Source: a bacterium
GTDB lineage: Bacteria; Hydrothermota; Hydrothermia; UBA1063
DNA length: 39,291 nucleotides
Direction of reading: 5' to 3'
NCBI GenBank assembly: GCA_030019025.1
Contig: JASEFR010000015.1
Span: 1-39,291, forward strand
Shown piece by piece: positions 1,141-30,183 of this stretch. The first letter of the stretch is position 1; every line of letters starts with the position of its first letter. Made by a program: the position numbers and the translations under genes. A model generated the notes under the pieces. It ran no database searches. It saw only the letters and a program-made list of their open reading frames with translations, and had not been told where the DNA came from.

Positions 1141-1635
1141 TCAGCAAGCTTTTTTAAAATAAGCTCTCCATTCGTTTCTGAATCTTATACTCCGTTTTTT
1201 TGGTGGTATATACTCCAGCCCCAAGAGGTGAAAAATTTCCTTTTCCCTGGTTGTTATAAGCTTTCCTGTTTCTCTGTCGAAAAGGCCATATTGACTTAGA
1301 AGATACCCTTTATTCTTTGCAATTGCTCTCATCCATATGTTAAATTCTCCAGAGCCAGTTAGGTAGAGGGCGAAACTCTCCCAGCTATCTTTGTATTCTT
1401 CAGGAATACAGTAGAATTCAATGCGTGAATAAAAATCGAGGCCTTTAAGTAATTTCTTTGCCTTTTCGCAGTCCTGCTCATAGAGAAGCAGATCTAAATC
1501 TCCAATGGTCTCTTCCTCCCTTACAAAAGAGCCATAAATTTCGTGTGTTATGCCTTTTTTACTAAGTATTTCTTTGATTTTTTCAACCATAAGACGTGCT
1601 TCTTTGTAGGGGATCCTGTTTTTTACCTTAGCCAT
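1141..1635 (-). CDS. Minimal DNA polymerase X-like nucleotidyltransferase (palm and thumb only)
   Basis: The 164-residue protein carries the Pol-beta superfamily signature GSFVREEETIGDLDLLL at about 35-51, with metal-binding Asp46 and Asp48. It then has the PolX C-terminal region: LTGSGEFNIWMR at 92-103 (compare TGSxxHNxxLR in PolX), YGLFDRETGKLI, and EIFHLLGLEYIPPKKR. The N-terminal HhH/8-kDa lyase domain of PolX (about 570 residues in bacteria) and the C-terminal PHP exonuclease are absent. The expected third catalytic Asp falls at Glu73 in RIEFYCI, a conservative change. The gene has its own ATG with AAGG upstream and diverges from sfsA. It may be a small gap-filling or nucleotide-transfer enzyme, but target and activity are unknown. 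It differs from the MNT/HEPN-type toxin partners because it keeps a PolX thumb. Confidence 0.75.
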   Translation of the reverse strand: MAKVKNRIPYKEARLMVEKIKEILSKKGITHEIYGSFVREEETIGDLDLLLYEQDCEKAKKLLKGLDFYSRIEFYCIPEEYKDSWESFALYLTGSGEFNIWMRAIAKNKGYLLSQYGLFDRETGKLITTREKEIFHLLGLEYIPPKKRSIRFRNEWRAYFKKAC

Positions 1636-1773
1636 CGTTAATTACCTTATAGCTTTTAAATAACAGACCAGTTAATGGAAATTTTATTGCTTTTACCGAT
1701 TTTATTCAATGAATTTCACATGCTATTTTGGGTGTATGCGGATTTCCTTTATTTTTCGTGTAAAATTTTTTGC

Positions 1774-2433
1774 ATGTACTTTCAGAATTTAATTCCAGCC
1801 AGAGTTGTAAAGAGGGAGAAGAGATTCAGGCTTTTTGTTGAAATTAACGGGAGTCTTCAGCTGGCCTATCTACCAAATTCTGGCAGGCTCGGAGAGCTTA
1901 TTTATCCCGGAGCAGAAGTTTTTGTGACCCGAAAAGTTCTTCCTAAGAGAAAAACAAGTTATGAGGTGGTGCTTGCAAAAGAGGGAAATATTTTTGTATC
2001 TGTTAATGCTCATCTTGCAAACGAACTGTTTGTAGAAAATATTAACAAAATGCCCTTCAAGGTAAAGGATTTTAGGCGTGAGTTTGTCTTTCTCGACTCA
2101 CGTTTCGATTTTCTTGTTAATGATGAAATATTGATTGAGGTCAAATCCTGTACATTGGTAAAAGATTCTATCGGATTATTTCCCGATGCGCCTACCCTTA
2201 GAGGGACTAAGCATTTGAAAACTCTGTTGGAGTGGCCTGGTAAAAAAGGACTTATTTTTGTAATTCAACGGGAGGATGCAAAGTATATGTCGGCAAACTT
2301 TGAAATGGATCAAAAGTTTGGTAAGACTTACTTGGAGGTGCTGAAGAAGGCTGATTATGTTCTTGCCTTTAACACAAGGGTCTCTCCTTCTGGTATTTTC
2401 TTTAAAGAGTTTGTTCCGGTTATTGGAGTTTAA
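1774..2433 (+). CDS. sfsA: SfsA family protein (sugar fermentation stimulation protein homologue)
   Basis: The 219-residue product is recognised as SfsA from LIPARVVKREKRFRLFVE at the N-terminus, YLPNSGRLGEL (the OB-like N-terminal domain), and the C-terminal nuclease-fold part with DSRFDFLV, EIEVK-like ILIEVKSCTLV, FPDAPTLRGTKHL and the final GIFF region. In E. coli SfsA affects maltose gene expression and binds DNA; the C-terminal domain resembles restriction-endonuclease-like nucleases. The biochemical role remains unsettled. An upstream ATG at 1675 would add 33 hydrophobic residues absent from the family, so the ATG at 1774 (MYFQNL) is chosen, although no clear Shine-Dalgarno precedes it. 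The aldehyde oxidoreductase cluster begins 12 bases downstream. Confidence 0.9.
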   Translation: MYFQNLIPARVVKREKRFRLFVEINGSLQLAYLPNSGRLGELIYPGAEVFVTRKVLPKRKTSYEVVLAKEGNIFVSVNAHLANELFVENINKMPFKVKDFRREFVFLDSRFDFLVNDEILIEVKSCTLVKDSIGLFPDAPTLRGTKHLKTLLEWPGKKGLIFVIQREDAKYMSANFEMDQKFGKTYLEVLKKADYVLAFNTRVSPSGIFFKEFVPVIGV

Positions 2434-2444
2434 AATATATAATC

Positions 2445-2903
2445 ATGAAAGTGTTAATGGTGAACTACGAAAATTGTACGGGATGCAGACTTTGTGAAAT
2501 GGCCTGCAGCTCAGGCCATTTCAGTCTTTACAGCCACGGCTATTCTCGCATAAGGGTTGTTAAAGGCAAGACCTTTTTCAATTTCTATCCCCAATTCTGT
2601 TCTCAGTGTGGAGATGCCTTTTGTGTAAGAGCCTGTCCAACTGGTGCGCTGGAGAAGAAATTTAATGTCATTCATTACGAGAAAGAGAAGTGCATTCTCT
2701 GCAGGCAGTGTACTTTTGCCTGTCCATGGGGTTTTATCTACCCAGACCCTGAAATGCAATTTATGATTAAGTGTGACCTGTGTGGAGGTGACCCGGAGTG
2801 TGTGAAAGTTTGCTTGCAGGACGCTCTTGCTTTTGTTGATGCTGATGAATCGGCGGACATAAAGCACTTTTCAAATGTTAACAGGGTGGAAGGTGTAAAA
2901 TGA
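2445..2903 (+). CDS. Polyferredoxin electron-transfer subunit of aldehyde oxidoreductase (AorA-like)
   Basis: The 152-residue protein has sixteen cysteines in four groups: C11/14/17/21, C52/55/60/64, C83/86/89/93 and C110/113/119/123. This is the arrangement of DMSO-reductase-B/HycB-type ferredoxins with four [4Fe-4S] clusters. Its stop overlaps the start of the aldehyde oxidoreductase gene (ATGA), so the two are translationally coupled and are inferred to be subunits of one enzyme. In Aromatoleum AOR, the small subunit AorA has the same size and also carries four clusters that pass electrons between the tungsten subunit and the FAD subunit. The start at 2445 is MKVLMVNYENC; a TATAAT-like sequence sits right before it, but no well-placed -35 or Shine-Dalgarno is visible. 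Confidence 0.85.
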   Translation: MKVLMVNYENCTGCRLCEMACSSGHFSLYSHGYSRIRVVKGKTFFNFYPQFCSQCGDAFCVRACPTGALEKKFNVIHYEKEKCILCRQCTFACPWGFIYPDPEMQFMIKCDLCGGDPECVKVCLQDALAFVDADESADIKHFSNVNRVEGVK

Positions 2904-4699
2904 GTTTTAAAATTTTGAGAATAAACTTATCTGATAAAACTTACTACATTGAAGAACTGAGTGAGGAGATCTTCAGGAAATACCTGCTCGGCAGAGGTAT
3001 AGGTGATTACATATTTTTCAAGGAGGTTGAGCCCTCAATTGAGCCATATTCAGCAGAAAACAGGCTAATTTTCTCCACAGGGCCCTTTGCAGGTACAACT
3101 GTCCCTGGCGCTGCAAGGCTTTCCTGTGTTACGAGAAGCCCATTGACTGGCACAATCACAAGCACCAATGCGGGTGGCCATTTTGGAATGGAGATGGCTT
3201 TAGCCGGGTATCATGTTATTGTAGTGGAGGGTATTTCTGACTCTCCGGTCTATGTTTATATTGAGGGCAAGAAAGTAATTTTCGGGGATGCCTCTAAGCT
3301 TTGGGGTAAGACAACATCGGAGACGGATATATTGCTTAAAAAATTAACCCATCCGAAGAGCAAAACCCTTGTGATTGGACCTGCAGGAGAAAATCTGTCT
3401 CCCATTGCAGGGATTTTTGTGGATGGTCACAGAGCGCTGGGAAGAGGCGGCGCAGGTGGAGTAATGGGGAGTAAGAAACTAAAGGGGATCGCAATTCTTG
3501 GAAAATCTAAGATAGAATTCAAAGGAGAAGCTCATAAATTTAAGGAAATATTAAGCAATTTGTATTCCCGTCTTAGGCAATCAGAAGGCCTTAAACGTTT
3601 CAGAACTTTTGGGACAACGGGAAATGTAAGGAGTATAAATCTTGCCGGTTCTTTTCCAACGAGAAACTTCCGGGATTCCTATCTTGAAGGATTTGAGAGT
3701 ATAAATGGCACCGAAGTGAATAGACTGTTTTTTGTTAGAGCTGGTGCCTGTGCCCAGTGTCCTGTTAGTTGTAATAGGATCACAAGAGTGGAGTATGAAG
3801 GCAGGATTTATCTTGTAAGCGGACCCGAATACGAGACACAGTGGGCTTTTGGCGGTGCTACGGGTGTAACAGATTTGAAGTATGTAATTTTGGCGCACCA
3901 TTTAGCCAACGAATACGGCTTTGATGGAATTTCTCTCGGCTCAACTGTTGCTTGTCTCATGGATCTTTATGAAGATGGGCATGTTAAGGATTTGCCGGTA
4001 GAGGCCAATTTTGGCGATGGAGAAGCGATGATCAAGTTAATACAACTTGCTGGAAGAAACGAAGGCATTGGGACGATCATAAAAGAGGGTTCACTGAGGT
4101 TGGCTTCCCATTTTGGTCATCCAGAATATTCGATGAGCGTGAAGGGGCAGGAAATTCCAGCCTATGACCCAAGGGGTATAAAAGGGATGGGTATCGGGTA
4201 TGCCACTTCTACCCGCGGTGCCTGTCATCTGCGGGGCTTCAATACGTCGCAGGAAGTCTATAACGCGCCTGATCCAGAGTATAGATTGAAATATACAGAC
4301 GAAAAGATCGATTTTCTCATAACTAATCAAAATATGAGGGCACTTCAGGATTCTCTCGGTGTTTGTGCCTTTGTTGGAGGATATTATGAACTTGAGGATT
4401 ACTGTACTTTGATTCAATCCCTCTTAGGTATTTCAATAACTCCTGAAGAACTTTATAGGGTTGGGGAAAGGGTCTGGAATGTTGAGAATCTTTATAACAG
4501 AAAGGCAGGTATTACAAAGGATCAGGATACTTTACCGGAAAGGATTTTCAATCTCCCTGCTGAGAGCGGACCTTCAGCGGGTGAGGCTTACGACAGGTCA
4601 GAGTTTGAAAGGCTACTTAATCTTTATTACAGAAGAAGAGGCTGGAATGAAGAGGGATGGCCTGAAGCGGGTAAATTAAGAGAACTCGGCATTGAGTGA
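2900..4699 (+). CDS. aor: Tungsten-type aldehyde:ferredoxin oxidoreductase catalytic subunit (AorB-like)
   Basis: At 599 residues this is close to Pyrococcus AOR (605). The N-terminal domain has FSTGPFAGTTVPGAAR and LTGTITSTNAGGHFG, which bind the bis-tungstopterin. The [4Fe-4S] ligands are Cys284, Cys287, Cys291 (CAQCPVSC) and Cys489 (SLGVCAFV), matching the CxxCxxxC...C pattern of the family. The active-site segment GPEYET (about 308-313) and ATSTRGACHLRG with His443 correspond to the catalytic Glu and His region. The reaction is reversible oxidation of aldehydes to carboxylic acids, in the cytoplasm. Overlaps with both neighbours (4 and 8 bases) indicate one operon and a three-subunit complex. 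The natural substrate is not deducible; formaldehyde- or glyceraldehyde-specific paralogues exist in the same family. Confidence 0.93.
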   Translation: MSFKILRINLSDKTYYIEELSEEIFRKYLLGRGIGDYIFFKEVEPSIEPYSAENRLIFSTGPFAGTTVPGAARLSCVTRSPLTGTITSTNAGGHFGMEMALAGYHVIVVEGISDSPVYVYIEGKKVIFGDASKLWGKTTSETDILLKKLTHPKSKTLVIGPAGENLSPIAGIFVDGHRALGRGGAGGVMGSKKLKGIAILGKSKIEFKGEAHKFKEILSNLYSRLRQSEGLKRFRTFGTTGNVRSINLAGSFPTRNFRDSYLEGFESINGTEVNRLFFVRAGACAQCPVSCNRITRVEYEGRIYLVSGPEYETQWAFGGATGVTDLKYVILAHHLANEYGFDGISLGSTVACLMDLYEDGHVKDLPVEANFGDGEAMIKLIQLAGRNEGIGTIIKEGSLRLASHFGHPEYSMSVKGQEIPAYDPRGIKGMGIGYATSTRGACHLRGFNTSQEVYNAPDPEYRLKYTDEKIDFLITNQNMRALQDSLGVCAFVGGYYELEDYCTLIQSLLGISITPEELYRVGERVWNVENLYNRKAGITKDQDTLPERIFNLPAESGPSAGEAYDRSEFERLLNLYYRRRGWNEEGWPEAGKLRELGIE

Positions 4700-5762
4700 A
4701 TACGTATTAGTTGGTTCAGGTCCTGCATCCATTAATTGTGCCTTAACTTTAAGAAAATTAAGGCCCAATTTAAGAATTAAAATAATCACTGATTCTTCTT
4801 TTCTTTTCGTAAAGATGGCGGGGCCATCGGTTTTGAAAAAAGAAATTAAGCCTTCCAACTTAGTTAAGGCACCACCTGAAGGTATAGAAATTGTGTTCAA
4901 TGAGAAAGTGCTGGGAGTTGATTTAGAAAGGAAAGTTGTGTTTTCATCGAATAAGGAATGGAACTATGAGAAATTATTTATTGGAACGGGTTCACGACAT
5001 CGTGCCTGTGCTTTTCACGGAGCTTTTTATCCCGATGAGTTTAACTCAATGCTGGAATTAAGAAACCTCATTTTGAATGGAAGGGTTAGAAAAGCGGTTA
5101 TATACGGCTTCGGAATGGTAACCCTTGAACTCATTGATATTTTATATTCCTATGGCATTGTTACTACCGTTGTTTCTTCCTCTTCTTATCCCCTGAGCAC
5201 TCTGGTATTCGATGAACTGGGAAAGAGACTAACTGCTTATTTTTCGCGCTTTGCCAGAATTGTTCTGGCAAACGAAATAGAAATGTTTGATGGGAAATGT
5301 GTCTATTTGAAAGACGGAAAACAAATTCCCTGTGATGCATTGATCGTGGCAAAGGGAACCGTTGCAAATCCCCTTATTCCGGAGATTAAGGTGAACGAGT
5401 TTATGCAAACGCAGTATGAAGAAGTGTTTTCTGGCGGTGATGCCGTCAGAGTGAGAGATAAAATAACGGGTGAATTCAAATTCATGCACTTGAACACCGT
5501 TGCATGGAAGACCGGTCATTATGCGGGTCTAAATATGGGAGGCTTAAGGGTTCCCTTTCCGGGTGCTACCTTCTTATCAGTTACAAAAACAAGAAATTTC
5601 AGTGTCTTTCTCTATGGTGAACTCAAAAATTTTGACGATTTTAAGATTGAAGAAAGAGATGGTTCACTCTTATGCAGCACCTTCCGGAGTGGAAAGGAAG
5701 TAGGTCTCTTTGCACTAAATAGAGAAGTTAATTTTTGGGAATTCACGCGATTTTTTGGCTAA
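4692..5762 (+). CDS. FAD/NAD(P)-binding oxidoreductase subunit (AorC-like)
   Basis: The 356-residue protein begins at a TTG at 4692 inside the end of the AOR gene. Its N-terminus YVLVGSGPASINCALTLR holds the GxGxxA/S dinucleotide fold for FAD. A second Rossmann segment, KAVIYGFGMVTLELIDIL, would bind NAD(P)H. The motif FSGGDAVRV near residue 250 is the second FAD-contacting GD motif of class I/II pyridine nucleotide-disulphide oxidoreductases. No CxxxxC redox disulphide is seen, so it is of the NADH:ferredoxin or rubredoxin reductase type. The position directly after a polyferredoxin and AOR is that of AorC in Aromatoleum, which links the tungsten enzyme to NAD+. AorC is somewhat longer (about 46 kDa against about 39 kDa here). 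Confidence 0.82.
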   Translation: MSEYVLVGSGPASINCALTLRKLRPNLRIKIITDSSFLFVKMAGPSVLKKEIKPSNLVKAPPEGIEIVFNEKVLGVDLERKVVFSSNKEWNYEKLFIGTGSRHRACAFHGAFYPDEFNSMLELRNLILNGRVRKAVIYGFGMVTLELIDILYSYGIVTTVVSSSSYPLSTLVFDELGKRLTAYFSRFARIVLANEIEMFDGKCVYLKDGKQIPCDALIVAKGTVANPLIPEIKVNEFMQTQYEEVFSGGDAVRVRDKITGEFKFMHLNTVAWKTGHYAGLNMGGLRVPFPGATFLSVTKTRNFSVFLYGELKNFDDFKIEERDGSLLCSTFRSGKEVGLFALNREVNFWEFTRFFG

Positions 5763-5851
5763 GGATATTAGCTTTGCCGTGGAAGTCTCCTTTCATTTGT
5801 TCGCATTGCGTACTTTATAATTGTTAGCAACACGAACAAAGGGGGGAGTTG

Positions 5852-7947
5852 ATGCTAATTTTTATGCTCATCCTATCTTCAGCTTTAAGAGTTCCTTTGA
5901 TCACGGAAGATGTTAAGCTGGATGGATTTCTTGAACCCTTGTGGGACTCTGCTTTAGTCTTTAGCAATTTTAAAGTATTTGAGCCTCAGGATAAAGAATT
6001 ACCTTCTTTCGCTACCAAATTTTATGTACTTCAGACGGAAAACTCGATATACGTTGCTTTTAGGTGTGAGCAAGACCAGGTAGTGAGTAGGGTAGGGCTG
6101 AGGGATGTAGCAGAAGGTGATTTTGTGGGTGTTTACTTTGATACCTTTGGTAGAGGAGGTAGTGTTTATTTCTTCGGTGTAAATGTGGCGGGAGTGCAGG
6201 TCGATCGTATTATCACGGGTGGGGGAAAGTTACCCGATGATAGTTGGGACGGGGTTTGGTTTTCAGCCGTTAGAAACTACAACGGAGAATACATAGTGGA
6301 AATAAAAATTCCCTTTAAAACTCTCCAGTATGACCTAAAAAACCCAATTTTTCGCATGGAGGCAACACGGTTTATCACCGAGACTAATGAAAGACTTTAT
6401 CTTGGTAAGTATGGGAGGGAGTGGGGATTAAATCCCGTTGATTTCCCAATTGAAATTGAGTTAAAATTGCCAAATAAGTCCTTTGGATTTGAACTTTTGC
6501 CCGTTATATTGGTGGAAAAAGACAGCATGGAATTCAGGTTAAGAGCGGGAGTAGGTTCAAAATGGTCTCCTTCAAATAGCTGTCATTAAATTTTACTTTT
6601 TATCCGGATTTCTCGCAGGTGGAAGCGGATCCCTTTATTTTAAAACTGGGTAAATATGAAGAGTATCTTGAGGAAAGGAGGCCTTTTTTCGTTGAAGGGG
6701 GCGAGGTATTTAGATTTCGTTCTAATCCTTACACCTTTGGCTTTGGCCCATCCATAAATCCATTTTACTCCAGAAGAATAGGTAAGGCATTGTATGGAAG
6801 TACCATTGTTCCTTTGATTTTTGGGTTTAAGGGCTTTATCAAGTCTCGCGGGTTCGAAGGAGGTTTGCTTTCTACTTTGACTGATGTTGCCTTTTATATT
6901 GACGATTATGGAGATACCATACGAGAGGAGAAGGCAGTTTATAATGTTCTATCCTTTAGAAAACAACTTTCAGGGTACTCCAATTTTGGTTTTATTTATT
7001 CAGGAAAAGTTTCCCAAGATGATATTTTCAAAAACCACTCTGCTGGCATCAATTTTCACTACTTTATTCAAAAAACAGAACTGACAGGAACTTACTCTGT
7101 TTCGCTCTATGAAAAAAATGTGGGGAATGCCTTTGCTTTACACATTACCACCCTTGAAGAAGATCATCACTTCATGTTTTCTGTTATGAATATTGATACT
7201 CTTTATAATGTTTCTGAGATAGGGTATACGCCATGGGTTGGACTTCGCAGAGTTGCAATTATGGCTGGACCTAATTTTGAAATTGCCGGGAGTAAACTTC
7301 AATATGCTTCTTTTTCTTTGGGTTTCAATAGCAAAGCAGAAGCGTATGAAGGAATGAAGAGCCAAAATTTCTTGTTCTTACATACTTCTTTGAATTACAA
7401 AAATGGCGCTGGGATTGAGTTTCACCTCTCTGGAGGGAGAGAGTATGTTGAGGATTATATAAAAGAATATGAGGTTAACATTGATGGTTGGTCTTCTCCC
7501 AATGCAAGATTAGAGTTCAGGGGAGGTCTCGGTCTCCATAGAGGTTATAACTATTATCGTGGATATGAGGGATTGATGGTGTCTCACCGTGGGGTATTTA
7601 GAATCCATGGGGATTCCAGGTATAATTGGGAGATACGTTTAAGAGGATGGCTTGAGTTTGACCCTTCTACGAGCTTAGAAGAGTATACTCTTTCCTTTCA
7701 ACCAAGGTTTCAATATGCCCTGAATAAGGATTTATTGGTAAGTTTCTATGGACAGTATGTTAAGCTTATCAAATCATATGAAACGGCGAGTAAAAATGTG
7801 AATCTCTTAATTTCTTACAATTTCAGGCCTAAGAGTTGGATTTACCTTGTGTTGTCAAAAGATTTTGCCAGTGACGGCTCGCAAGGACAACCGCAAGGGG
7901 TGTCTTTAAACTCAGGTATTTGTTTTATTTTTAGCAATTTTGCTTGA
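5852..7947 (+). pseudogene. Outer-membrane CBM9-like/DUF5916 beta-barrel protein, interrupted by a frameshift
   Basis: The first frame (ATG 5852 to TAA 6589) encodes a signal peptide (MLIFMLILSSA) and a CBM9-like domain: LDGFLEPLWDSA, FYVLQTENSIYVAFRCE, VGVYFDTFG. It continues towards a barrel. The second frame resumes at 6580 with LSLNFTFYPDFSQVEADPF and RRPFFVEGGEVFRF, which are the hallmark strands of DUF5916 proteins, and runs to 7947 as beta strands rich in aromatic residues, ending ...FIFSNFA. The family motif NLTLNPDFSQVEADP is therefore split across frames, consistent with one missing base near 6575-6580. No slippery heptamer is visible. Either the gene is broken or the sequence has an error there. 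The first start is placed at 5852 because GGGGGGAG precedes it; a TTG at 5849 is less likely. The function of the family is unknown. Confidence 0.8.
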
Positions 7948-7972
7948 TAATGCACATCTGCTGAAATATAAT
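7944..7972 (+). promoter_or_regulatory. Sigma-70-type promoter of the symporter-CoA-transferase-kor operon
   Basis: TTGATA (7944-7949) and TATAAT (7967-7972) are separated by 17 bases. The promoter overlaps the stop of the upstream gene and leaves a leader of roughly 15 bases before the symporter ATG, including its Shine-Dalgarno sequence. Confidence 0.65.
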
Positions 7973-7994
7973 TTATTTCAAAAGGAGAGGTTAA

Positions 7995-9434
7995 ATGCAC
8001 TTTTCAGTTCAGTTTATTATACTTTTTGTTTATTTTGTGGTAGTACTCGCTATTGGCCTTCTCGCACAAAAACTTGCAAAGTCAGGCACAGACTATTTGA
8101 TTGCTGGGAGGAATCTCGGATTGTTGCTCTGTACAGTGGTGGTTGTAGGGGAATGGCTCGGTGGTATGAGTACCATCGGCGTTTCTGAGAGAGCTTATGC
8201 AACGGGTATTTCTTCTGCTTGGTATAACATTTCAACTTCCATCGGGATGGCGTTGTTTGGCTTTCTCCTTGCGAAACACTATAGGAAGAACCATGTATAC
8301 ACCGTATCTGAAATGATTGAAAAGCTTTACAGCAAGGAAGTAAGGACCATTTCAGCAATTGCTTTTCTTTTCGCTTACATAATTCTCGGTTATGCTCAGA
8401 TCCAGACGGTTGGATCTGTGCTTGCTTCCACCCTTAACATGAAATTTTCAGAGGGGGTTATACTGGGCGGTCTCCTTGTTACGATTTATGTCACGGCGGG
8501 TGGGTTCTGGTCTATTACTCTGACTAATGTGATTCATACTTTTTTCCTGTACTTTTCAATAATTTCTACTTTTATCATTGGACTTATAAAAATTGGTGGT
8601 TACTCTGGTCTGTTTTCTGCCCTTGCTGAAGTAGGAAAGAATGTGGAAGTTTATAAAAGTCCTTTCGGCGTTGGAGCAAATCAGGTTCTCGGCTGGATAA
8701 TTGGTGGTATGTTTGGTGCTTTCGCAGCTCAGGCTTCAATTCAGCCGGTTTTCGCTGCAAAAGATGAAAAGACTGCAAAGAATGCTGCTCTTTTAAGCGC
8801 ATTATTAATCTTCCCAACGGGAATCTTGACCGCGACTCTTGGAATGATTGCAGCAACGGGGAAATTTGCCGATGTGCCAAATCCCAAACAAGCACTGCCA
8901 AGCCTTTTAATGTCTCCAAAGTTTGTTCCCCCATGGTTTGGTGGGATAGCTCTCGCTGGCATTCTTGCCGCAATCCTCTCCACTATTGCACCTGTAATGT
9001 TTGCTATTTCTACAATTCTTGTGAAAGATATTTATCACAATCTCATTAATAAGGAAGCGGATGAAAGGAAAATTCTAAAGGTTTCTCGGTGGTTTACTTT
9101 TATAGTGGGGATACTCCTTATTCCATTAGCCGTATTCCTCAAAGGTTTTGTTCTCGATACAGGTTATATCTCCTATGCCATAAGGGGTGCTGCTGCAATA
9201 ATTGTTCTTGCCGGTGTTTATTGGGTGGTTAGGGGGAAAAGGATACCCACTCCCAATGCTGCCATTGTCGCTATGATAGTTGGCACTATCGTTGCCATTG
9301 CTTTCCCAATCATTAAATATTATAAACCCGATTTTAACTTTGACAAAAATCTCTGGGCACTCGGTACAGCGCTCCTATCCATTCTTCTTGTCACCTTTAT
9401 TGAGAGAGTCGTATTTAGGAGGAAAAATTTATGA
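7995..9434 (+). CDS. Sodium:solute symporter (SSS) family transporter
   Basis: The 479-residue protein is almost entirely hydrophobic with about thirteen transmembrane segments, as expected for SSS/SLC5 permeases. Family features include DYLIAGRNLGLLL after TM1, the WLGGMSTIGVSERAYATG segment at the start of TM2, and YVTAGGFWSITLTNVIHTF in the TM5-TM6 region. It would co-transport Na+ and a small organic solute across the inner membrane; substrate specificity cannot be read. AAAGGAGAGG lies four bases before the ATG. It heads a five-to-six gene operon, and its stop overlaps the CoA-transferase start (ATGA). The neighbours suggest that the imported compound is an organic acid or 2-oxoacid, which is inference. 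Confidence 0.9.
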   Translation: MHFSVQFIILFVYFVVVLAIGLLAQKLAKSGTDYLIAGRNLGLLLCTVVVVGEWLGGMSTIGVSERAYATGISSAWYNISTSIGMALFGFLLAKHYRKNHVYTVSEMIEKLYSKEVRTISAIAFLFAYIILGYAQIQTVGSVLASTLNMKFSEGVILGGLLVTIYVTAGGFWSITLTNVIHTFFLYFSIISTFIIGLIKIGGYSGLFSALAEVGKNVEVYKSPFGVGANQVLGWIIGGMFGAFAAQASIQPVFAAKDEKTAKNAALLSALLIFPTGILTATLGMIAATGKFADVPNPKQALPSLLMSPKFVPPWFGGIALAGILAAILSTIAPVMFAISTILVKDIYHNLINKEADERKILKVSRWFTFIVGILLIPLAVFLKGFVLDTGYISYAIRGAAAIIVLAGVYWVVRGKRIPTPNAAIVAMIVGTIVAIAFPIIKYYKPDFNFDKNLWALGTALLSILLVTFIERVVFRRKNL

Positions 9435-10615
9435 AACCTCTTGAGGGTGTTAAAGTCCTTGATCTTTCGAGGGTTCTTGCAGGCCCCACAGTGGGTATGA
9501 TCCTCGGGGATCTTGGAGCAGACGTGATAAAAGTGGAAAGGCCAGGGACAGGTGACGAAACCCGAGGCTGGGGACCACCCTTTGCGGGTGGAGAAAGTGC
9601 CTACTACATGTGTGCTAACAAAAATAAAAGGGGAATGACCCTGAATTTAAAGTCCGAAGAGGCCGGAGAAATCCTTGAGAAACTAATTAAACGCAGTGAT
9701 GTAATGATATTAAACTTTCTACCCGATGTCCTAAATAGCCTGCATTTGACTTATGATGAAGTAAAGAAAATAAAACCCGATATTATCTGGGCCTCAGTAA
9801 CAGGATTTGGACTTACTGGTCCTAAGGCACATAAACCAGGTTATGATGTTTTAATTCAGGGTATCAGTGGGCTTATGAGCATAACTGGTGAGCCCGATGG
9901 AGAACCGATGAAAGTTGGAGTTGCAATTTGCGATGTGCTTACCGCTTTATACACCGTTATTGCGATCGAATCAGCTCTTATACGAAGGAATAGGACAGGT
10001 GAAGGTGCAATGATTGATAATTCTTTACTGGAATCAACTATCGCAAGCCTGGTAAATGTTGCAAATAACTATCTAATTGGAGGTATTATACCGAAGAGAT
10101 ATGGTAATGCTCATCCCAATATAGTTCCCTACCAGGTGTTTAAGGCCAGTGATGACTACATAATAATAGGTGTGGGAAATGAAGAACAGTGGAAGCGTTT
10201 TTGCAAAGTAATTGAAAGGGAAGATCTTGCCACAGATCCGAGATTTGAAACCAACGCTAAGCGCCTTGAAAACAGGGATGTTCTCATACCCATCATAGAG
10301 GAAATCATTGCTAAGCGTGAAAGTAAATACTGGCTTGAGAAGCTTGATGAGGCGCATATCCCAGCTGGTCCTATAAATACTGTGGACAAAGCAATAAACG
10401 ACGAACAGGTAGTTTACAGGAGATTCATTCAGGAAATTGATCATCCAACGGCAGGCCGTATTAAGTTGATGAGAAACCCGATACACTTCGGAGATATTGA
10501 ACTGGATATTTACAGGCACCCGCCGTTACTTGGCGAACATACAAAGGAAATTCTTCTGGAACTTGGATATTCGGAGGAAGATTATTTAAAATTTAAAAAG
10601 AAAGGAGTTGTATGA
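9431..10615 (+). CDS. Family III CoA-transferase (CaiB/BaiF type)
   Basis: The 394-residue product has the standard family III sequence: LEGVKVLDLSRVLAGP at the N-terminus, LGADVIKVERPGTGDETRGWGPP, KRGMTLNLKSEEA, GYDVLIQGISGLMSITGEP and KVGVAICDVLTALY. These enzymes move CoA between an acyl-CoA and a free carboxylic acid and fold as interlocked dimers. At the position of the nucleophilic Asp in formyl-CoA transferase (after GEGAMIDNSLL) this protein shows Glu (LLEST). Such Glu variants occur in the family, so loss of activity is not implied, but the exact reaction (transferase or racemase) is open. AGGAGG precedes the ATG. Overlaps with the symporter upstream and the ferredoxin downstream place it in the Kor operon, where it may exchange CoA from the Kor product. 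Confidence 0.88.
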   Translation: MKPLEGVKVLDLSRVLAGPTVGMILGDLGADVIKVERPGTGDETRGWGPPFAGGESAYYMCANKNKRGMTLNLKSEEAGEILEKLIKRSDVMILNFLPDVLNSLHLTYDEVKKIKPDIIWASVTGFGLTGPKAHKPGYDVLIQGISGLMSITGEPDGEPMKVGVAICDVLTALYTVIAIESALIRRNRTGEGAMIDNSLLESTIASLVNVANNYLIGGIIPKRYGNAHPNIVPYQVFKASDDYIIIGVGNEEQWKRFCKVIEREDLATDPRFETNAKRLENRDVLIPIIEEIIAKRESKYWLEKLDEAHIPAGPINTVDKAINDEQVVYRRFIQEIDHPTAGRIKLMRNPIHFGDIELDIYRHPPLLGEHTKEILLELGYSEEDYLKFKKKGVV

Positions 10616-10848
10616 ATAAACGCTTTGAAATAGAAATTAATCACGACTGGTGTAAAGCCTGCTATATCTGTGTTAAGATTTGTCCCAAGGATGTATTCGA
10701 CATCGCAGAAAAAGAAAGTTTTAGGGGATTTAGAGAAGTAATACCTACAAGGTTGGAAGATTGCATAGGGTGTATGATGTGTGAAAACTTTTGCCCTGAT
10801 TTTGCAATAGAAGTGAAGGAGATTGAAGATGCCGTGGAAAAGAATTAA
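10612..10848 (+). CDS. korD: 2-oxoacid:ferredoxin oxidoreductase delta subunit, 2[4Fe-4S] ferredoxin
   Basis: The 78-residue protein has two CxxCxxCxxxCP motifs, CKACYICVKICP and CIGCMMCENFCP, separated by about 30 residues, the pattern of an 8Fe ferredoxin. Its position immediately before the alpha subunit, with overlapping ends, fits the KorDABC order of 2-oxoglutarate-type oxidoreductases. It would carry electrons from the thiamine-diphosphate subunit to free ferredoxin. The start overlaps the CoA-transferase stop by four bases, with AAAGGAG just upstream. Confidence 0.88.
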   Translation: MNKRFEIEINHDWCKACYICVKICPKDVFDIAEKESFRGFREVIPTRLEDCIGCMMCENFCPDFAIEVKEIEDAVEKN

Positions 10849-11971
10849 GTTGCCAATTAGTCCGGGAAGATTTCTGGTTCAGGGTGATGAGGCTGTTGCT
10901 GATGGTGCCTTTTGTGCTGGAATGAGATTTTATGCGGGGTATCCTATAACGCCTGCAAGTGAGGTAATTACACGTGTTCAGCAAAGGTTTGAAGAGTCAG
11001 GAGAAGGTGTTTACTTTCAAGGTGAAGATGAGATAGCCTCTATAGCAGCCTGCATTGGAGCCTCTTGGACAGGAGTGAAGGCTATGACAGCCACCAGTGG
11101 GCCTGGCTTTGATCTTATGGTGGAAAATCTGGGATATGCAATCTTTACTGAGACTCCGCTGGTTATTGTTGACGTTCAGCGAGCGGGTCCTTCCACTGGT
11201 CAAGCCGCGCGACCGTCTCAGGGTGACTATCATCAGGTAAGATACGCCACTCATGGAGATTACGAAATAATCGTACTTTCCCCCTGGTCTTGTCAAGAGC
11301 TGTTTGAATTTGGAATTAGAGCCTTTAATTTGGCAGAAAGATATAGGGTCCCCGTTATTATTTTGACGGATGAAGCAATTGGACATTTAAGAGAACCGGT
11401 GGTTTATCCTGAAGAGATAAATATATTCGATAGAGAGCACGATCCAGATGCTCCACCTTTTAGTTTTGACGAGAAGGACGCAGGCCCGATGCCCCTTATC
11501 GGTGACGGTAAGTCACTTTTAATAACTGGATCTACCCATACAGAGTGGGGAAAACGAGTAACACAGGACCCGGAAGTTCACCGAAAGATCGTTAAACATC
11601 TTATAGGAAAGATTCGTAATAACGTTTCCGATATCTTTGAATCGCACGAGGAATTCATTGAAGATGCGGAAATAGTCATAGCTTCCTATGGAATCTCATC
11701 AAGAAGCGGATTTGAGGCTGTAAAGAGACTGAGAGAAAAGGGTATAAAAGCAGGATTTTTCAGGTTCAAAGTTATATGGCCTATGTGGGAAAAGTATGTA
11801 AAGGAAAGGCTTTCCGGTGTGAAAAAGATTTTTGTACCGGAAATGAATGCTGGTCATTTATCGAGAGAGCTTGAAAGGCTGGTTGATGTTGAGATAATTC
11901 CCATCTTAGAGCTTGGAACGTGTGTTATAACTCCGGAAGTCATTGTAAAAGAAGTGGAGGCCCATCTATGA
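10829..11971 (+). CDS. korA: 2-oxoacid:ferredoxin oxidoreductase alpha subunit
   Basis: The 380-residue protein matches KorA: FLVQGDEAVADGAFCAGMRF, then YAGYPITPASEVITRV, then EDEIASIAACIGASWTG, then TATSGPGFDLMVENLGYA and QRAGPSTGQAARPSQGD. These are the pyrimidine-binding and domain I/II segments of the alpha chain. The enzyme decarboxylates a 2-oxoacid with CoA to acyl-CoA, CO2 and reduced ferredoxin, and can run in reverse for CO2 fixation. The chosen ATG at 10829 lies inside the ferredoxin gene and is preceded by AAGGAG at seven bases; a TTG at 10823 would add two residues. 2-Oxoglutarate is the likely class from similarity in subunit order and sequence, but branched-chain or other oxoacids are possible. 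Confidence 0.9.
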   Translation: MPWKRIKLPISPGRFLVQGDEAVADGAFCAGMRFYAGYPITPASEVITRVQQRFEESGEGVYFQGEDEIASIAACIGASWTGVKAMTATSGPGFDLMVENLGYAIFTETPLVIVDVQRAGPSTGQAARPSQGDYHQVRYATHGDYEIIVLSPWSCQELFEFGIRAFNLAERYRVPVIILTDEAIGHLREPVVYPEEINIFDREHDPDAPPFSFDEKDAGPMPLIGDGKSLLITGSTHTEWGKRVTQDPEVHRKIVKHLIGKIRNNVSDIFESHEEFIEDAEIVIASYGISSRSGFEAVKRLREKGIKAGFFRFKVIWPMWEKYVKERLSGVKKIFVPEMNAGHLSRELERLVDVEIIPILELGTCVITPEVIVKEVEAHL

Positions 11972-12711
11972 AAAATTATATGGATTGGATAAGAACAGAT
12001 TTCTTTCCCACTGCTTTTTGTCCAGGCTGTGGTCATGGCATCATTTTAAAGGCCATTGCAAAGGCATTAACGGAACTGGAACTCAGGAGAGAAGAGGTTG
12101 TCTTTGTGTCTGGGATTGGCTGCTCTGGCTGGATACCAAGCCCGTATATTAAAGCGGATTCTATTCATACAACTCACGGTAGAGCTCTTGCCTTCGCGAC
12201 GGGTGTTAAGCTAACAAAGCCAGATTTGACTGTCATTGTAGTTGGAGGGGATGGAGACCTTGCCTCTATCGGTGGTAACCATCTCATCCACGCAGCGAGA
12301 AGAAATATAGATATTACCTGCATTATGGCTGACAACAACAATTACGGCATGACGGGTGGTCAATATTCTCCTACCACTCCCCGGGGTGCTAAGACATCTA
12401 CTTCAAAGAAAGGCCATGTTGAGTCTGCCTTTGACGTTGCTGCACTTGTAAAGGCTGCAGGTGCAAGTTATGTGGCGAGATACACTGTCGCTCATTTCCC
12501 ACAACTGGTTAATGCAATTAAAAAGGCTATATTAACTCCTGGTTTTTCCTTTGTACAGGCTATCAGTACCTGCCCGACCCATTATGGTAGACGAAACCTT
12601 TCTCAAGATCCTTATGAGTACCTTGATTATTTGAGGAAGAATTCTGTCAACTTGAAAAATGTGCAGAGTCAAGATGATGTTTTGAATAAAATAACGATAG
12701 GAGAATTTTAA
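11968..12711 (+). CDS. korB: 2-oxoacid:ferredoxin oxidoreductase beta subunit (thiamine diphosphate-binding)
   Basis: The 247-residue beta chain has the iron-sulphur ligands CPGC (Cys18, Cys21), Cys52 in GIGCSGW and a further Cys in AISTCPTHYGRR. The thiamine-diphosphate/Mg motif is GGDGDLASIGGNHLIHA followed by NNNYGMTGGQYSPTTP, which is diagnostic for KorB-type subunits. The ATG overlaps the korA stop (ATGA), with GTGGAGG upstream. An alternative upstream start would add 16 residues absent from the family. It forms the catalytic core with KorA. Confidence 0.92.
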   Translation: MKNYMDWIRTDFFPTAFCPGCGHGIILKAIAKALTELELRREEVVFVSGIGCSGWIPSPYIKADSIHTTHGRALAFATGVKLTKPDLTVIVVGGDGDLASIGGNHLIHAARRNIDITCIMADNNNYGMTGGQYSPTTPRGAKTSTSKKGHVESAFDVAALVKAAGASYVARYTVAHFPQLVNAIKKAILTPGFSFVQAISTCPTHYGRRNLSQDPYEYLDYLRKNSVNLKNVQSQDDVLNKITIGEF

Positions 12712-12712
12712 A

Positions 12713-13252
12713 ATGGATACTTTGCAGGTCAGATATGCCGGAACGGGCGGACAGGGTTTAATTTTGCTTGGCGTCTTAACTGCTGATTCGGCTGTTAAAG
12801 CCGGGAATTATGCAACTCAAGGTTCTTATTACGGTGCTCAGGTGAGAGGTGGAATTACTTCCGCAGACGTGGTTCTGAGTAAAAATTGGATTGCATTCCC
12901 TTATGTGGAGTACTCAGATGTCTTGGTCGCCCTTACTTCTGAATCCCTTAGTTATTACCTGAAAACTGCCAGAGAGGGGAGCTTGGTGATTGTTGATGAA
13001 ATTGTCTTGATTGAGGAAGATCAGAGTGAACTAAAGGAGAGGTTTAATTTCGAAAGGGTTCCCTTTACTCGCACGTGTTATGAAAAATTTAACTCGGGAT
13101 TTTTTGTTAACATAGTTGCCTTTGGTTACGTTTCAAGGTATTTAAAAGACTTTTTTTCCGAAGAGGAAGCCATCGCTGCCCTTAAAGATAATGTGCCTGA
13201 GAAATATTTTGATGTTGAAGTTGAGGCTTTTAAACTTGGGACTTTACTTTAA
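12713..13252 (+). CDS. korC: 2-oxoacid:ferredoxin oxidoreductase gamma subunit
   Basis: The 179-residue protein begins LQVRYAGTGGQGLILLGVLT and contains GSYYGAQVRGGITSADVVLS, which are the two signature segments of the gamma (KorC/PorG) domain that helps hold CoA. It starts one base after the korB stop. Its 3' end overlaps the 3' end of purA by four bases on the opposite strand, and no hairpin terminator is seen between them. Confidence 0.92.
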   Translation: MDTLQVRYAGTGGQGLILLGVLTADSAVKAGNYATQGSYYGAQVRGGITSADVVLSKNWIAFPYVEYSDVLVALTSESLSYYLKTAREGSLVIVDEIVLIEEDQSELKERFNFERVPFTRTCYEKFNSGFFVNIVAFGYVSRYLKDFFSEEEAIAALKDNVPEKYFDVEVEAFKLGTLL

Positions 13253-25645: not shown

Positions 25646-26692
25646 CTACTTTTTATTTTTTCTCACCCCTGGTGGAATTTCAAAATTTCTTAATTTTAAA
25701 CGCTTATTTGCTATCCTCTCAGTAACATTGTCAGGAGTTTTTTTGCCAGTCGTACCGATTAAATAGATCTCAGCATAAGAATTGATCTTTTCGTCTCCTT
25801 CTTGCTGAAGTCCATATTTGATGGGGGCATTCTTAGGGATGTGGTTTCTGATTTCATCGAGTATTAGGTCGAAATGTGCCATTTTGAGTTTGCCATTGCT
25901 TTTGATGTATAAAAGGGCGCCTTTCACATCGTTTATCGTTATACCAGTAAGTAGGGGGTTAAAAACTACACTTTCAATTGCCTTATTTAAATCGTCTGGC
26001 TTTTCTGCAATACCTTTGGCGAAATATCCAAGCCCTCCTCTTGATATAAGGGCTTTTAAGTCATTGAAATCTAAGTTTACATAACTTGTTTCTTGGACGA
26101 TGTTAATAATTGATTCCACGCAGTTTTTCACTACATTGTCAATAAGAGCAAAGGCTTCACCTACGCTTGATTCTATACTGGTTAGCTCTGAGATCATATT
26201 GTTGTCAATAATTACCATTGTATTGAGGTATTTTTCCATCTCGTTAATAGCTCTGAGAGCTATATCCTTTTTCCCTTCAGCCTCGAAGGGTAGGGTAAAG
26301 ACTCCAACGGTGAGTATGTTTTTCTCTTTTGCATATTTTGCAACAACAGGTGACGCCCCCGAACCAGTACCATTACCAAGACCTGCAACCAGTATAAGTA
26401 GATCTGCGTCTTGAATTCTTGAGAGAATTTCATGAATAGATTCTTCGGCAGCTTTTTTCCCGAGGTCTGGGTCTGCTCCAGCACCTCCTCCTCTTGTAGT
26501 GGCCTTTCCAATTGTTATAAGATAACTCGCCCGTTGTTTTGATATGGCCTGGGTGTCTGTATTTAGTATAATAGTTTCACATTTTAGCCCAGTCAAAAAA
26601 ATCTTATGGACTATGTTACCACCTGCTCCTCCTATGCCCACAACTTTAATTTTGAAGTTTATGGAATCATTTCTTTTATATGCTGTAATCAT
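25646..26692 (-). CDS. ftsZ: Cell division protein FtsZ
   Basis: The 348-residue tubulin homologue polymerises with GTP to form the division ring at mid-cell. It has VGIGGAGGNIVHK at the N-terminus, NTDTQAI, a glycine-rich T4 loop AGLGNGTGSGASPV at about 103-116 (canonical GGGTGTG reads GNGTGSG, one Gly-to-Asn change), and the T7 loop NLDFNDLK with both catalytic Asp residues (about 208 and 211). The C-terminus RNFEIPPGVRKNKK resembles the conserved peptide that binds FtsA and other tethers; the linker before it is very short. AAAGGAG lies before the ATG. It follows ftsA by 11 bases and is the last dcw gene. Confidence 0.95.
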   Translation of the reverse strand: MITAYKRNDSINFKIKVVGIGGAGGNIVHKIFLTGLKCETIILNTDTQAISKQRASYLITIGKATTRGGGAGADPDLGKKAAEESIHEILSRIQDADLLILVAGLGNGTGSGASPVVAKYAKEKNILTVGVFTLPFEAEGKKDIALRAINEMEKYLNTMVIIDNNMISELTSIESSVGEAFALIDNVVKNCVESIINIVQETSYVNLDFNDLKALISRGGLGYFAKGIAEKPDDLNKAIESVVFNPLLTGITINDVKGALLYIKSNGKLKMAHFDLILDEIRNHIPKNAPIKYGLQQEGDEKINSYAEIYLIGTTGKKTPDNVTERIANKRLKLRNFEIPPGVRKNKK

Positions 26693-26703
26693 AGATAACT
26701 CCT

Positions 26704-27933
26704 TTAGATTCCGAAAATTCTTTTAAGAAGTCCTTTTACACTCCCCACAATTTTTACTTCTGTTAAGTTTTTGTTAGATGTTAACTTTTTATAAGCAAAA
26801 AACAGGGCGCCCAAGGATGAAGATAGTCGATTTGACGGTGGGATATTATTTTGGGTCAAGAATTCCTCAAGTTCTTCGCTTGGCCTGTAAATTTCTGTGG
26901 TTATGTTGAAAACATCTTCAGCAATTCTATCGATGTATTCTATTTCACTTGTTCCACCTGTGATTTTAACAAAGGTAATCTTGTCTTTTAGGTTGTTCTG
27001 AATAAGCTTTTCCTTTATATATTCGAAGATGTCCGTCAATCTCTCCGTTATGTATTGAACTACTAGCTCCCCTTTTATTCTTGAAACTCTCCCTGGGGAA
27101 AAAATTGAGTTTAAAAAGTATATTTCCTGCTCATGATCGTATTCGGCTTTCCCATAGAAAATTTTTAGTTCTTCTGCCTTATCAAGGGTCACCCCGAAGT
27201 AGTGTTTTAGGTCTTTGTTGATGTTCATACCGCCGACGGGAAGACTTTCAGCGAACAGAAGCTTATTTTCAGCAATTACACCGTAGTTTGTGAGGTCCCG
27301 TCCTATGTCGATTAATAAAACTCCGTTTTCTTTTTCTTCCTTGTTCGTGAGTTCGTATAGCTGGGCTACAATTTGATATATAAAACTGTCTGCTATTAGC
27401 CCTGTTTTTTCAAGGGCTTTCTTATAATTTAATAACGATGATTTTTTAGCAGTTATGAGAGCGGTTTCTACCTCAAGTCTTACACCCAGCATTCCCTTTG
27501 GGTTTTTGATATCTGGTTTTGAATCTACGTTGAATCTTATCGGGATCGACTGAGCTATTGAACGTCCCTCTTCAATTTTAATGGTGAGTGAATTTTTTAT
27601 TGCCTGCTCTATATGTTTTTCGGTGATCTCGGCAGGGTTTTCAGGGGTCCCACAAGCGGCCATTCCAATAGATGTCAAAAATTCTACTTCAGGATCGGCG
27701 AAGCTTATGAATACGTGGGATGGTTCAAATTTAGATTTTTTAGAGAATTCGTCCAGGGTTTTTCTGACTTTAATTGCAATGTTTTCAAGGTTATAAACTT
27801 GTCCCTGCCTTATGGTATCAGAATCCACCGGCTCATTGCCCCAGAATTTTATTGTTAGATCATTGTTGGCTTCAGCGATTAAGGTGACAATTTTTGATGA
27901 ACAGAAATCGACCACAACAAAGGTTTCACCCAT
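26704..27933 (-). CDS. ftsA: Cell division protein FtsA
   Basis: The 409-residue actin-like ATPase tethers FtsZ to the membrane. It shows VVVDFCSSKIVTLIAE (phosphate-1), a 1C domain region with FISFADPEVEF, LLIDIGRDLTNYGV (phosphate-2) and KITGGTSEIEYID (adenosine motif). The last 14 residues VGSVKGLLKRIFGI form an amphipathic membrane-targeting helix. The ATG at 27933 is used because GGGGGA sits seven bases upstream; a TTG at 27951 would extend it six residues into murB. There is one base between murB and this start. No ftsQ or ddl lies between murB and ftsA, where many bacteria have them. Confidence 0.93.
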   Translation of the reverse strand: MGETFVVVDFCSSKIVTLIAEANNDLTIKFWGNEPVDSDTIRQGQVYNLENIAIKVRKTLDEFSKKSKFEPSHVFISFADPEVEFLTSIGMAACGTPENPAEITEKHIEQAIKNSLTIKIEEGRSIAQSIPIRFNVDSKPDIKNPKGMLGVRLEVETALITAKKSSLLNYKKALEKTGLIADSFIYQIVAQLYELTNKEEKENGVLLIDIGRDLTNYGVIAENKLLFAESLPVGGMNINKDLKHYFGVTLDKAEELKIFYGKAEYDHEQEIYFLNSIFSPGRVSRIKGELVVQYITERLTDIFEYIKEKLIQNNLKDKITFVKITGGTSEIEYIDRIAEDVFNITTEIYRPSEELEEFLTQNNIPPSNRLSSSLGALFFAYKKLTSNKNLTEVKIVGSVKGLLKRIFGI

Positions 27934-27934
27934 T

Positions 27935-28816
27935 TTAATTCCCCCTTGCAAAGTTATCTAAGGGATTTAAAACAATTATCTCTCTCTCCAATTCTATGTT
28001 GAACATCTCCTTAACCCTTTTATGGCCAATGTCTATAAGCCCTATGACGTCCTTACTGGTTGCTCCGTTAAAGTTTACGATAAAGTTTGCGTGCTTTTCT
28101 GAAAACTTTGCTCCCCCAACAGAGTATCCTTTGAGCCCAGCTTTGTCGAGAAGATAGCCGGCACTTACACCTTCAGGATTTTTGAATACAGACCCCAAAG
28201 TTAGTTCCCCTACGGGCTGAGTTTCTCTCCTCTTTTTCTTAAATTCCTTCATAGCCAGTTCGATTTTCTCTGGAGATGAAGGGGCAAATTTTAAAGTAGC
28301 TTCTACTAATATGCCGAATTTTTTTAAATCGCTCTTCCTATAGTTAAAATTTAGCTCCTTTTGGCTTACCTTTTCAAAATGCCCGTCGGGAGTCAAAACT
28401 ACCCCTTCTACAAAAAGTTCTCCTATTTCTCTACCAAAAGCACCTGCGTTTCCTGCGATCGCTCCCCCGATCGTACCCGGAATTTCGCTTAACTGCTCCA
28501 TACCCGAAAGTCCGGCCCTTTGAAGTTTCTTTACGAGAACGGGTATTTGAATTCCGGCTTTCATCGTTGCTTTGTTGCCGCTTATTGTTATTTCACTCAA
28601 ATTTGTCATTTTTATTATGATGCCATAATATCCTTCGTCTGGAAATAGTATGTTGCTTCCACTTCCAATAATATAGTAAGGTAAGCTCATTTCCCTGGCT
28701 ATGTTCATTGCCTTTAAGATTTCTTCAACGGACTTAACTTGTACAAAGAAGCGAGCAGGCCCTCCAATTCTTATATAACTATGATTTCTGAGTGGTTCTT
28801 GTTCTCTTATCTTCAT
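27935..28816 (-). CDS. murB: UDP-N-acetylenolpyruvoylglucosamine reductase
   Basis: The 293-residue flavoenzyme reduces UDP-GlcNAc-enolpyruvate to UDP-MurNAc with NADPH. It has the FAD-binding part IGGPARFFVQVKS, YIIGSGSNILFPDEG and EIPGTIGGAIAGNAGAFG. The catalytic region has FNYRKSDLK and the active-site serine in LTLGSVFKNP, plus SGYLLDKAGLKGY-like GYLLDKAGLKGYSVGGA and SEKHANFIVN. The length and lack of the type I insert place it in type II (Bacillus-like) MurB. It overlaps the murC stop by four bases. Confidence 0.95.
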   Translation of the reverse strand: MKIREQEPLRNHSYIRIGGPARFFVQVKSVEEILKAMNIAREMSLPYYIIGSGSNILFPDEGYYGIIIKMTNLSEITISGNKATMKAGIQIPVLVKKLQRAGLSGMEQLSEIPGTIGGAIAGNAGAFGREIGELFVEGVVLTPDGHFEKVSQKELNFNYRKSDLKKFGILVEATLKFAPSSPEKIELAMKEFKKKRRETQPVGELTLGSVFKNPEGVSAGYLLDKAGLKGYSVGGAKFSEKHANFIVNFNGATSKDVIGLIDIGHKRVKEMFNIELEREIIVLNPLDNFARGN

Positions 28817-30183
28817 AGTGATTGAAGTATCGCTTCGCCTATTTTGTACACATTTCCTGCGCCTATGGTTATTAAGAGGTCTCCTGGCTTCAGTTCTTTT
28901 TTAAGGTATTCAATAATCTCTGTAAATTCTGGCATGTATATGGCGCCTTTGTGCCCATATTTTTTTAGGGAGTCGTAAATAAGCTTTGCTGTTACACCTT
29001 CTATGGGTTTTTCTCCTGCAGGGTAAATTTCTGTAACGATTACTATATCCGCATCGAAAAAGGCTTTACCAAAACTGTCATGTAAATAGTAGGTTCTGGA
29101 GTACCTGTGTGGTTGAAAAACTGCAATAATCCTTCCATCATGAAATTCTCTTGCTGTTTTGAGGGTTTCAATTATTTCTTTGGGATGGTGGCCGTAGTCG
29201 TCCACTATTTTTATCCCGTTTATGTTTCCCTTTAGTTCAAATCTCCTTGCCACGCCTTTAAATCCTTCTATTCCTTCAATTATTTCGTTTTCTTTTATTC
29301 CGAGCTCAACTCCTACTGCAAAGGCGGCAAGGGCGTTTTTAACATTGTGTACACCTGGAATGTTCAAGGTTACATCTCCGATCTTATTTTTTTTGAAATA
29401 AGCCGAAAAACGGATATGATCGTTAAAAACCTGAATATTTCTTGCGTTCAAGTCTGCATTTGATGCAAATCCGTAAGTGATTTTGTTTCTTTCGACAAAG
29501 GGCAGGATTTCTAAGGTGTTGTGATCGTCTATATTGGCACAAACTGTTCCGTAAAATGGAACCTTGTTGGCAAATTCAACAAATGCCTTCTTTATGTTCT
29601 CAAGGTTTTCATAGCAATCTAAGTGTTCTTCGTCAATATTGGTTACTACGGCGATGGTTGGGAAAAGGTTTAGAAAGGACATGTCGCTTTCATCTGCTTC
29701 GACTACGAGAAAGTCGGATTGGCCGAGTTTGGCTCCCGATTTTAGGCCCCTTATAATGCCACCGACAATTATAGTTGGGTCAAGACCTGCTACCTGCAGG
29801 AGCGTCCCTATCATAGATGTTGTAGTGGTTTTCCCATGGGCACCAGAAACTGCTATCGTATATTTTATTCGCGTCAATTCTGCTAACATCAAAGCTCTTC
29901 TAATAACTGGTATCCCTTTTTCCTTGGCTGCTATCACTTCTACATTATCATCCTTTATCGCAGTTGAAATCACGAGCAGGTCAGCATCATTAATATTTTC
30001 GGGACTGTGTCCGTAATTTATTTTAATTCCAATTTCTTCAAGGTGTTTGGTGACTTCATTTTGCGCGAGATCAGAACCGGTTACTTTGAAACCAAGATTA
30101 TGAAGAACCTCGGCAATCCCACTCATACCTGAACCGCCAATTCCAACAAAATGGATTTTCTTAAATTTTTTAGCAAACTGCAT
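28813..30183 (-). CDS. murC: UDP-N-acetylmuramate--L-alanine ligase
   Basis: The 456-residue Mur ligase starts the stem peptide by adding L-Ala to UDP-MurNAc with ATP. Its N-terminal domain has HFVGIGGSGMSGIAEVL, the ATP-binding P-loop is AVSGAHGKTTTTSMIG, and later segments include EADESDMSFLNL, TNIDEEHLDCY, DDYGHHPKEI and FQPHRYSRTY. These make the identity secure. AAGGAG lies about ten bases upstream of the ATG, inside the end of murG, which overlaps by 14 bases. Confidence 0.96.
   Translation of the reverse strand: MQFAKKFKKIHFVGIGGSGMSGIAEVLHNLGFKVTGSDLAQNEVTKHLEEIGIKINYGHSPENINDADLLVISTAIKDDNVEVIAAKEKGIPVIRRALMLAELTRIKYTIAVSGAHGKTTTTSMIGTLLQVAGLDPTIIVGGIIRGLKSGAKLGQSDFLVVEADESDMSFLNLFPTIAVVTNIDEEHLDCYENLENIKKAFVEFANKVPFYGTVCANIDDHNTLEILPFVERNKITYGFASNADLNARNIQVFNDHIRFSAYFKKNKIGDVTLNIPGVHNVKNALAAFAVGVELGIKENEIIEGIEGFKGVARRFELKGNINGIKIVDDYGHHPKEIIETLKTAREFHDGRIIAVFQPHRYSRTYYLHDSFGKAFFDADIVIVTEIYPAGEKPIEGVTAKLIYDSLKKYGHKGAIYMPEFTEIIEYLKKELKPGDLLITIGAGNVYKIGEAILQSL

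Follow-up and report, generated by a model that had tools for sequence, protein, structure and literature searches.

The window, by which we mean the whole 39,291-nucleotide stretch of DNA analysed here, carries three overlapping genes that we read, at a rough probability of 70%, as encoding one Class III-type complex (WorS-WorL-WorN, as in AorABC), an aldehyde/acid oxidoreductase that would be heterotrimeric or form a very short stack and would be linked to nicotinamide nucleotides. This reading takes gene content, domains, residues, predicted folds and joint inheritance as its basis, and complex formation, direction, substrate and electron carrier are predicted from them. In the proposed mechanism, a tungsten bis-pyranopterin in the 599-residue subunit would be the site where aldehyde is converted to acid or the reverse. 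The electrons would then pass from the [4Fe-4S] cluster of this subunit to the four clusters of the 152-residue polyferredoxin and on to the FAD of the 356-residue subunit, which would exchange them with NAD or NADP. Judged from the sequences, the most likely function is to oxidise aldehydes or reduce acids in a reaction linked to NAD(P)H, and the locus would extend the possible coupling of aldehyde/acid chemistry with nicotinamide nucleotides to an uncultured lineage. Enzymes of WorS-WorL-WorN composition have been published as Class III tungsten oxidoreductases, with 179 members or 5% of the family (PMC13328260, PMC6365974), and their sole characterised member is the Aromatoleum AorABC, a filament (PMC13328260). 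The trio arrangement is therefore already known, and the set in the window is a deep-branching addition to Class III WOR.

Table 1. Position of the three genes and of the polyferredoxin tail in the window
Feature	Position	Strand	Domain or remark
aorA/worS-like gene, 152-residue polyferredoxin with four [4Fe-4S] clusters (16 Cys)	2445..2903	+	Fer4 dicluster domains (Pfam)
aorB/worL-like gene, 599-residue tungsten aldehyde oxidoreductase catalytic subunit	2900..4699	+	AFOR_N/AFOR_C (Pfam)
aorC/worN-like gene, 356-residue FAD/pyridine-nucleotide oxidoreductase, TTG start, without C-terminal nucleation extension	4692..5762	+	Pyr_redox_2 (Pfam)
AorA-like C-terminal tail (residues 136-152), equivalent to the filament helix of Aromatoleum	2850..2900	+	Shortened, divergent

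The preliminary description of three coupled genes (152, 599 and 356 residues, with 16 Cys in the first product and Cys284/287/291/489 in the second) was confirmed by the open reading frames, Pfam domains and conserved residues, and its AorABC-like three-subunit reading is backed by gene content, fold, sequence and co-inheritance. In the list of open reading frames, the first and second genes overlap by 4 bases and the second and third by 8. The 599-residue protein matched AFOR_N and AFOR_C with E-values of 4e-70 and 5e-121, and the 356-residue protein matched Pyr_redox_2 at 5e-25. The locus thus has the gene content of Class III: a WorL with AFOR domains and their ligands, an adjacent four-cluster WorS and an adjacent Pyr_redox_2 WorN related to AorC. 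Compared with G003, a genome of the same genus, the trio genes in order show 0.10, 0.09 and 0.18 nonsynonymous differences per site against 0.68-0.78 synonymous differences per site across the trio, the latter near or at saturation, which suggests that purifying selection acts on each of the genes.

Sequence matches of the 599-residue protein in the structural database included PfAOR (2e-145), AmWOR1 (1e-142) and AorB (2e-120), with identities of 39% to Aromatoleum AorB and 41% to the WorL of AmWOR1. All four [4Fe-4S] ligands (Cys284, Cys287, Cys291 and Cys489) are kept in agreement with PfAOR and AorB, as are the W-cofactor and catalytic positions R73, N90, R178, A179, T239, E312, D342, Y422, H443 and D484. 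Its catalytic residues are in keeping with the aldehyde-oxidising group. BamB and BamC are distant relatives (4z3w matches), so that a BamB-type (benzoyl-CoA reductase) or other non-aldehyde tungsten enzyme might be considered; we find this highly improbable, as BamB scored 141 bits compared with 407-489 bits for aldehyde oxidoreductases, and Thr239, Glu312, Tyr422 and His443 agree with PfAOR. The Fe ligands that bridge the PfAOR homodimer, Glu332 and His383, are replaced by Leu331 and Ile378, and with these ligands absent and partner subunits present the protein does not correspond to a homodimeric archaeal AOR of the PfAOR type. In the large-subunit tree, the host lineage formed its own deep clade (SH-aLRT 99) outside the remaining sampled AOR-type enzymes and apart from AorB, AmWOR1 and PfAOR, and Class III rows were scattered over several places; its exact position is tentative because the tree was built quickly and some of its branches are long. 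The check proposed at the outset, whether the catalytic subunit groups with AorB or with BamB, therefore gave neither: it did not group with AorB, and BamB is by far the weaker match.

The host, whose 1.73-Mb genome is 99% complete and contains four AOR genes, belongs to the bacterial candidate division WOR-3. An archaeal origin was rejected, since relatives carrying a 53-84% identical AOR are WOR-3/Hydrothermota metagenome-assembled genomes (MAGs), namely candidate division WOR-3 bacterium UBA5631 (G001) and G003 from the same genus, Candidatus Hydrothermota B29_G16 (G004) from the same family, and G005-G007 from a sister family of the same order; those not named are WOR-3 MAGs of the same order. 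The identical trio order, with genes overlapping or nearly so, was found in all six, and the FAD gene adjoins the AOR gene in 7/7 order members that have this AOR, diverged ones included. The WorL and WorN trees branch alike within the order, consistent with the subunits having been inherited together as a complex. The same-genus genome G002 (99% complete) contains two AORs but yielded no match to the FAD subunit, and no such ferredoxin or FAD partners were seen at the AOR loci retrieved from other families of the class. Partners were likewise not found for the host's remaining three AOR genes within fetched flanks of about 5-7 kb per side. These three genes lie on contigs C1, C11 and C24 of the host genome, G000 (L068, L066 and L067); in the C11 protein, PfAOR Tyr427 is replaced by Val and Asp489 by Phe, and the C1 protein sits on a very long branch of the large-subunit tree. 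The host genome also encodes MoaC and a WtpA-like tungstate/molybdate-binding protein, the latter below the family cut-off. A literature search for the host lineage together with aldehyde ferredoxin oxidoreductase found nothing.

The AlphaFold model of the 356-residue protein (pLDDT 91) aligned with AorC (8c0z_E) in Foldseek at a TM score of 0.87, a level that many NADH-dependent reductases reach about as well, and an order-level profile of the FAD subunit recovered AorC 8c0z_E at 1e-43. The AorC sites Arg41/Met42 correspond to Lys41/Met42. In AorC, Met42 is a near neighbour of the flavin and of two FS4 cluster ligands (PMC10413684); in CoA-disulfide reductases a Cys takes its place, and this Cys is absent from the window protein. 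These features bear on an alternative in which the AOR and its ferredoxin subunit alone make up a Class II-like enzyme that passes electrons to or from free ferredoxin, the FAD protein being an independent NAD(P)H-linked oxidoreductase that only shares the operon. Such an arrangement could account for the FAD protein evolving fastest of the three (66% identity to G003 compared with 84% and 80% for the other two) and for a single-sequence search that places it nearest to CoA-disulfide reductases. We nevertheless consider it improbable, given the invariable position of the FAD gene beside this AOR even in diverged members of the order, the Met42 at the AorC electron-transfer site in place of the reductase Cys, and a C-terminus shorter than in the stand-alone reductases that resemble the FAD protein. 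A first tree had hinted that the FAD subunit was recruited independently from stand-alone reductases; we set this aside, since a single WorN clade including AorC was not rejected (p-AU 0.50, obtained after one very long row and some others were removed from the WorN tree).

NAD(P)H, from NAD or NADP, is a plausible electron carrier for the predicted Class III-type complex. The point against it is that AorC Glu171 is replaced by Ser and the phosphate-contact Arg179 by Thr, so that pyridine-nucleotide binding could be altered. Two Gly residues of the nucleotide motif (G139 and G141) are retained. An acidic residue at the position equivalent to 171 usually goes with NAD preference in this fold. 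Other Class III proteins vary at both sites too, with Gln, Thr or Met at that of Arg179. The two replacements are accordingly no proof of lost nucleotide binding, and we rejected the interpretation that the loss of Arg179 marks a dead nucleotide site.

As to the assembly of the complex, the preliminary description had suggested a possible nanowire-like filament. That suggestion was not supported: the AorA-like tail is reduced and divergent, and gone in the sister family, and the nucleation extension of AorC is missing in the whole lineage. In Aromatoleum, truncating AorA from residue 138 onward reduces the assemblies to AB and ABC, and successive AorA subunits are contacted by a three-helix domain at the C-terminus of AorC (PMC10413684). 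The FAD subunit of the window stops well short of this three-helix extension: the lineage proteins measure 356-383 residues, that of the window being 356, compared with 396-424 residues in other trios; the alignment lacks the extension in every lineage member, and the window model ends in one 6-residue helix. The earlier caution that assembly may differ on account of the short FAD subunit was thus well placed.

The core of the polyferredoxin is well conserved. All 16 cluster Cys are present, 15 of them invariant and one nearly invariant among 40 relatives, and the AlphaFold model of the 152-residue protein best matched AmWOR1 WorS (9mqx_E, TM 0.84), followed by AorA (8c0z_C, TM 0.82). The window protein has 29 residues after the last Cys, compared with the 33 usual outside the lineage, 32 in Aromatoleum AorA and 28 in AmWOR1 WorS (the last two counted from structure chain coordinates), and the sister family G005-G007 has only 12, i.e., its tail is gone. 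Within the genus and in G004, the 29-residue tail can be aligned. The basic/aromatic pattern RKK..A.KFK....EV, conserved in most relatives, is lost from the window protein, whose residues 137-147 are modelled as a helix with low confidence (block-mean pLDDT 36-58).

True Aor(AB)nC nanowire filaments as in Aromatoleum would have to form here through the shortened tail and other AorA-AorA contacts. The persistence of an alignable tail, its modelled helix and the three-unit stacks that AmWOR1, the nearest relative of known structure, forms with an equally short WorS tail (PMC13328260) would allow for this; the 28-residue tail of that WorS shows the length seen in the window to be compatible with short stacks. 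Long filaments are nevertheless unlikely, because the conserved tail pattern is lost, the helix is of low confidence, the sister family dropped the tail yet kept the trio, and the AorC extension that touches AorA' and AorA'' in Aromatoleum is absent. With the FAD subunit lacking the nucleation extension and the polyferredoxin tail reduced, a WorLSN heterotrimer or a very short stack, and no long filament, is the most likely assembly predicted from these proteins.

It is conceivable, though rather unlikely, that the WOR-3 branch lost the filament apparatus stepwise and altered its nucleotide site as well, the FAD extension being gone in all members, whereas one family has a reduced polyferredoxin tail and the other none; the product would be a compact, non-filamentous acid reductase/aldehyde oxidase whose FAD subunit uses NADP or another carrier. 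The lineage provides natural counterparts of the laboratory tail-deletion mutant, with one filament determinant lost, the other reduced or deleted and all three subunits kept. A comparison with the filament enzyme would show whether stacking matters for catalysis or just adds capacity.

Among known systems, Aromatoleum aromaticum AorABC (8c0z) shares the three subunits, gene order, cluster and W-cofactor residues, flavin-site Met42 and folds with the window set, but differs in the tree position of its large subunit, an AorA tail about 3 residues longer, its C-terminal AorC extension and the Glu171/Arg179 pair. The WOR1 of Acetomicrobium mobile (9mqx), a Class IV bifurcating enzyme, has a WorS that is also of 152 residues, with a tail of nearly equal length; in contrast, the window has a single FAD subunit and no WorABC bifurcation module among its neighbours. 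An assignment to the Class IV bifurcating WORs was rejected because no WorABC genes were found among the neighbours at 1141-13252, on the basis of a domain search of 1675-10612 and a reading of the remaining open reading frames within 1141-13252. By published description, the AOR of Moorella thermoacetica, from a different phylum, resembles the window in its three-subunit operon and reduced AorA C-terminus, and a review proposes for it an ABC trimer without filaments, its AorA lacking the C-terminal extension (PMC12096430). The trio was also found in Desulfurellales, Deltaproteobacteria, an actinomycete MAG and others. The Desulfurellales/Hippea trios (L073-L075, L079, L081, L083, L084 and L088) are 41-44% identical and among the nearest outside the host order, yet they differ from the window in that their AorA tails extend 29-38 residues past the last Cys and their complete AorC proteins, of 396-404 residues, carry the C-terminal extension (the FAD gene of L073 and L074 is truncated or lies beyond the contig end). 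The L073 trio, which is close to the Desulfurellales ones, comes from a short contig that has been attributed to a DHVE2 archaeon, reflecting either a binning error or transfer.

Within the genus, a DUF5916-type gene lies 3' of the trio. Downstream in both the window and G003 are genes for an SSF transporter, a CoA-transferase III and a 2-oxoacid:ferredoxin oxidoreductase-like protein, a region before which the G001 contig ends; in G004-G007 these genes are not beside the trio. As the neighbours of G004-G007 differ, no firm substrate can be drawn from the neighbourhood. In the window, the sodium:solute symporter, CoA-transferase family III and 2-oxoacid:ferredoxin oxidoreductase-like genes occupy 7995-13252 on the same strand as the trio, and the counterpart region of G003 also shows a small ferredoxin gene. 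The DUF5916/CBM9-like gene at 5849-7947 is split into two open reading frames in different frames (246 and 442 residues), compared with a single 705-residue frame in G003; the split is due to a frameshift that is either genuine or an assembly error. All three genomes of the tail-less sister family have a short gene that overlaps the FAD gene at its end (L058, L059 and L060); the product of this short gene starts PIGYIE(T/S)PYK and appears TrmO/TsaA-like by eye. Elsewhere in the window, the minus strand at 25646-39106 carries, from a reading of the open reading frames, a cluster of genes for cell division and the cell wall: ftsZ, ftsA, murB, murC, murG, ftsW, murD, mraY, murF, murE and a penicillin-binding protein gene, and the end of an open reading frame at 27-440 resembles a type IX secretion sorting domain.
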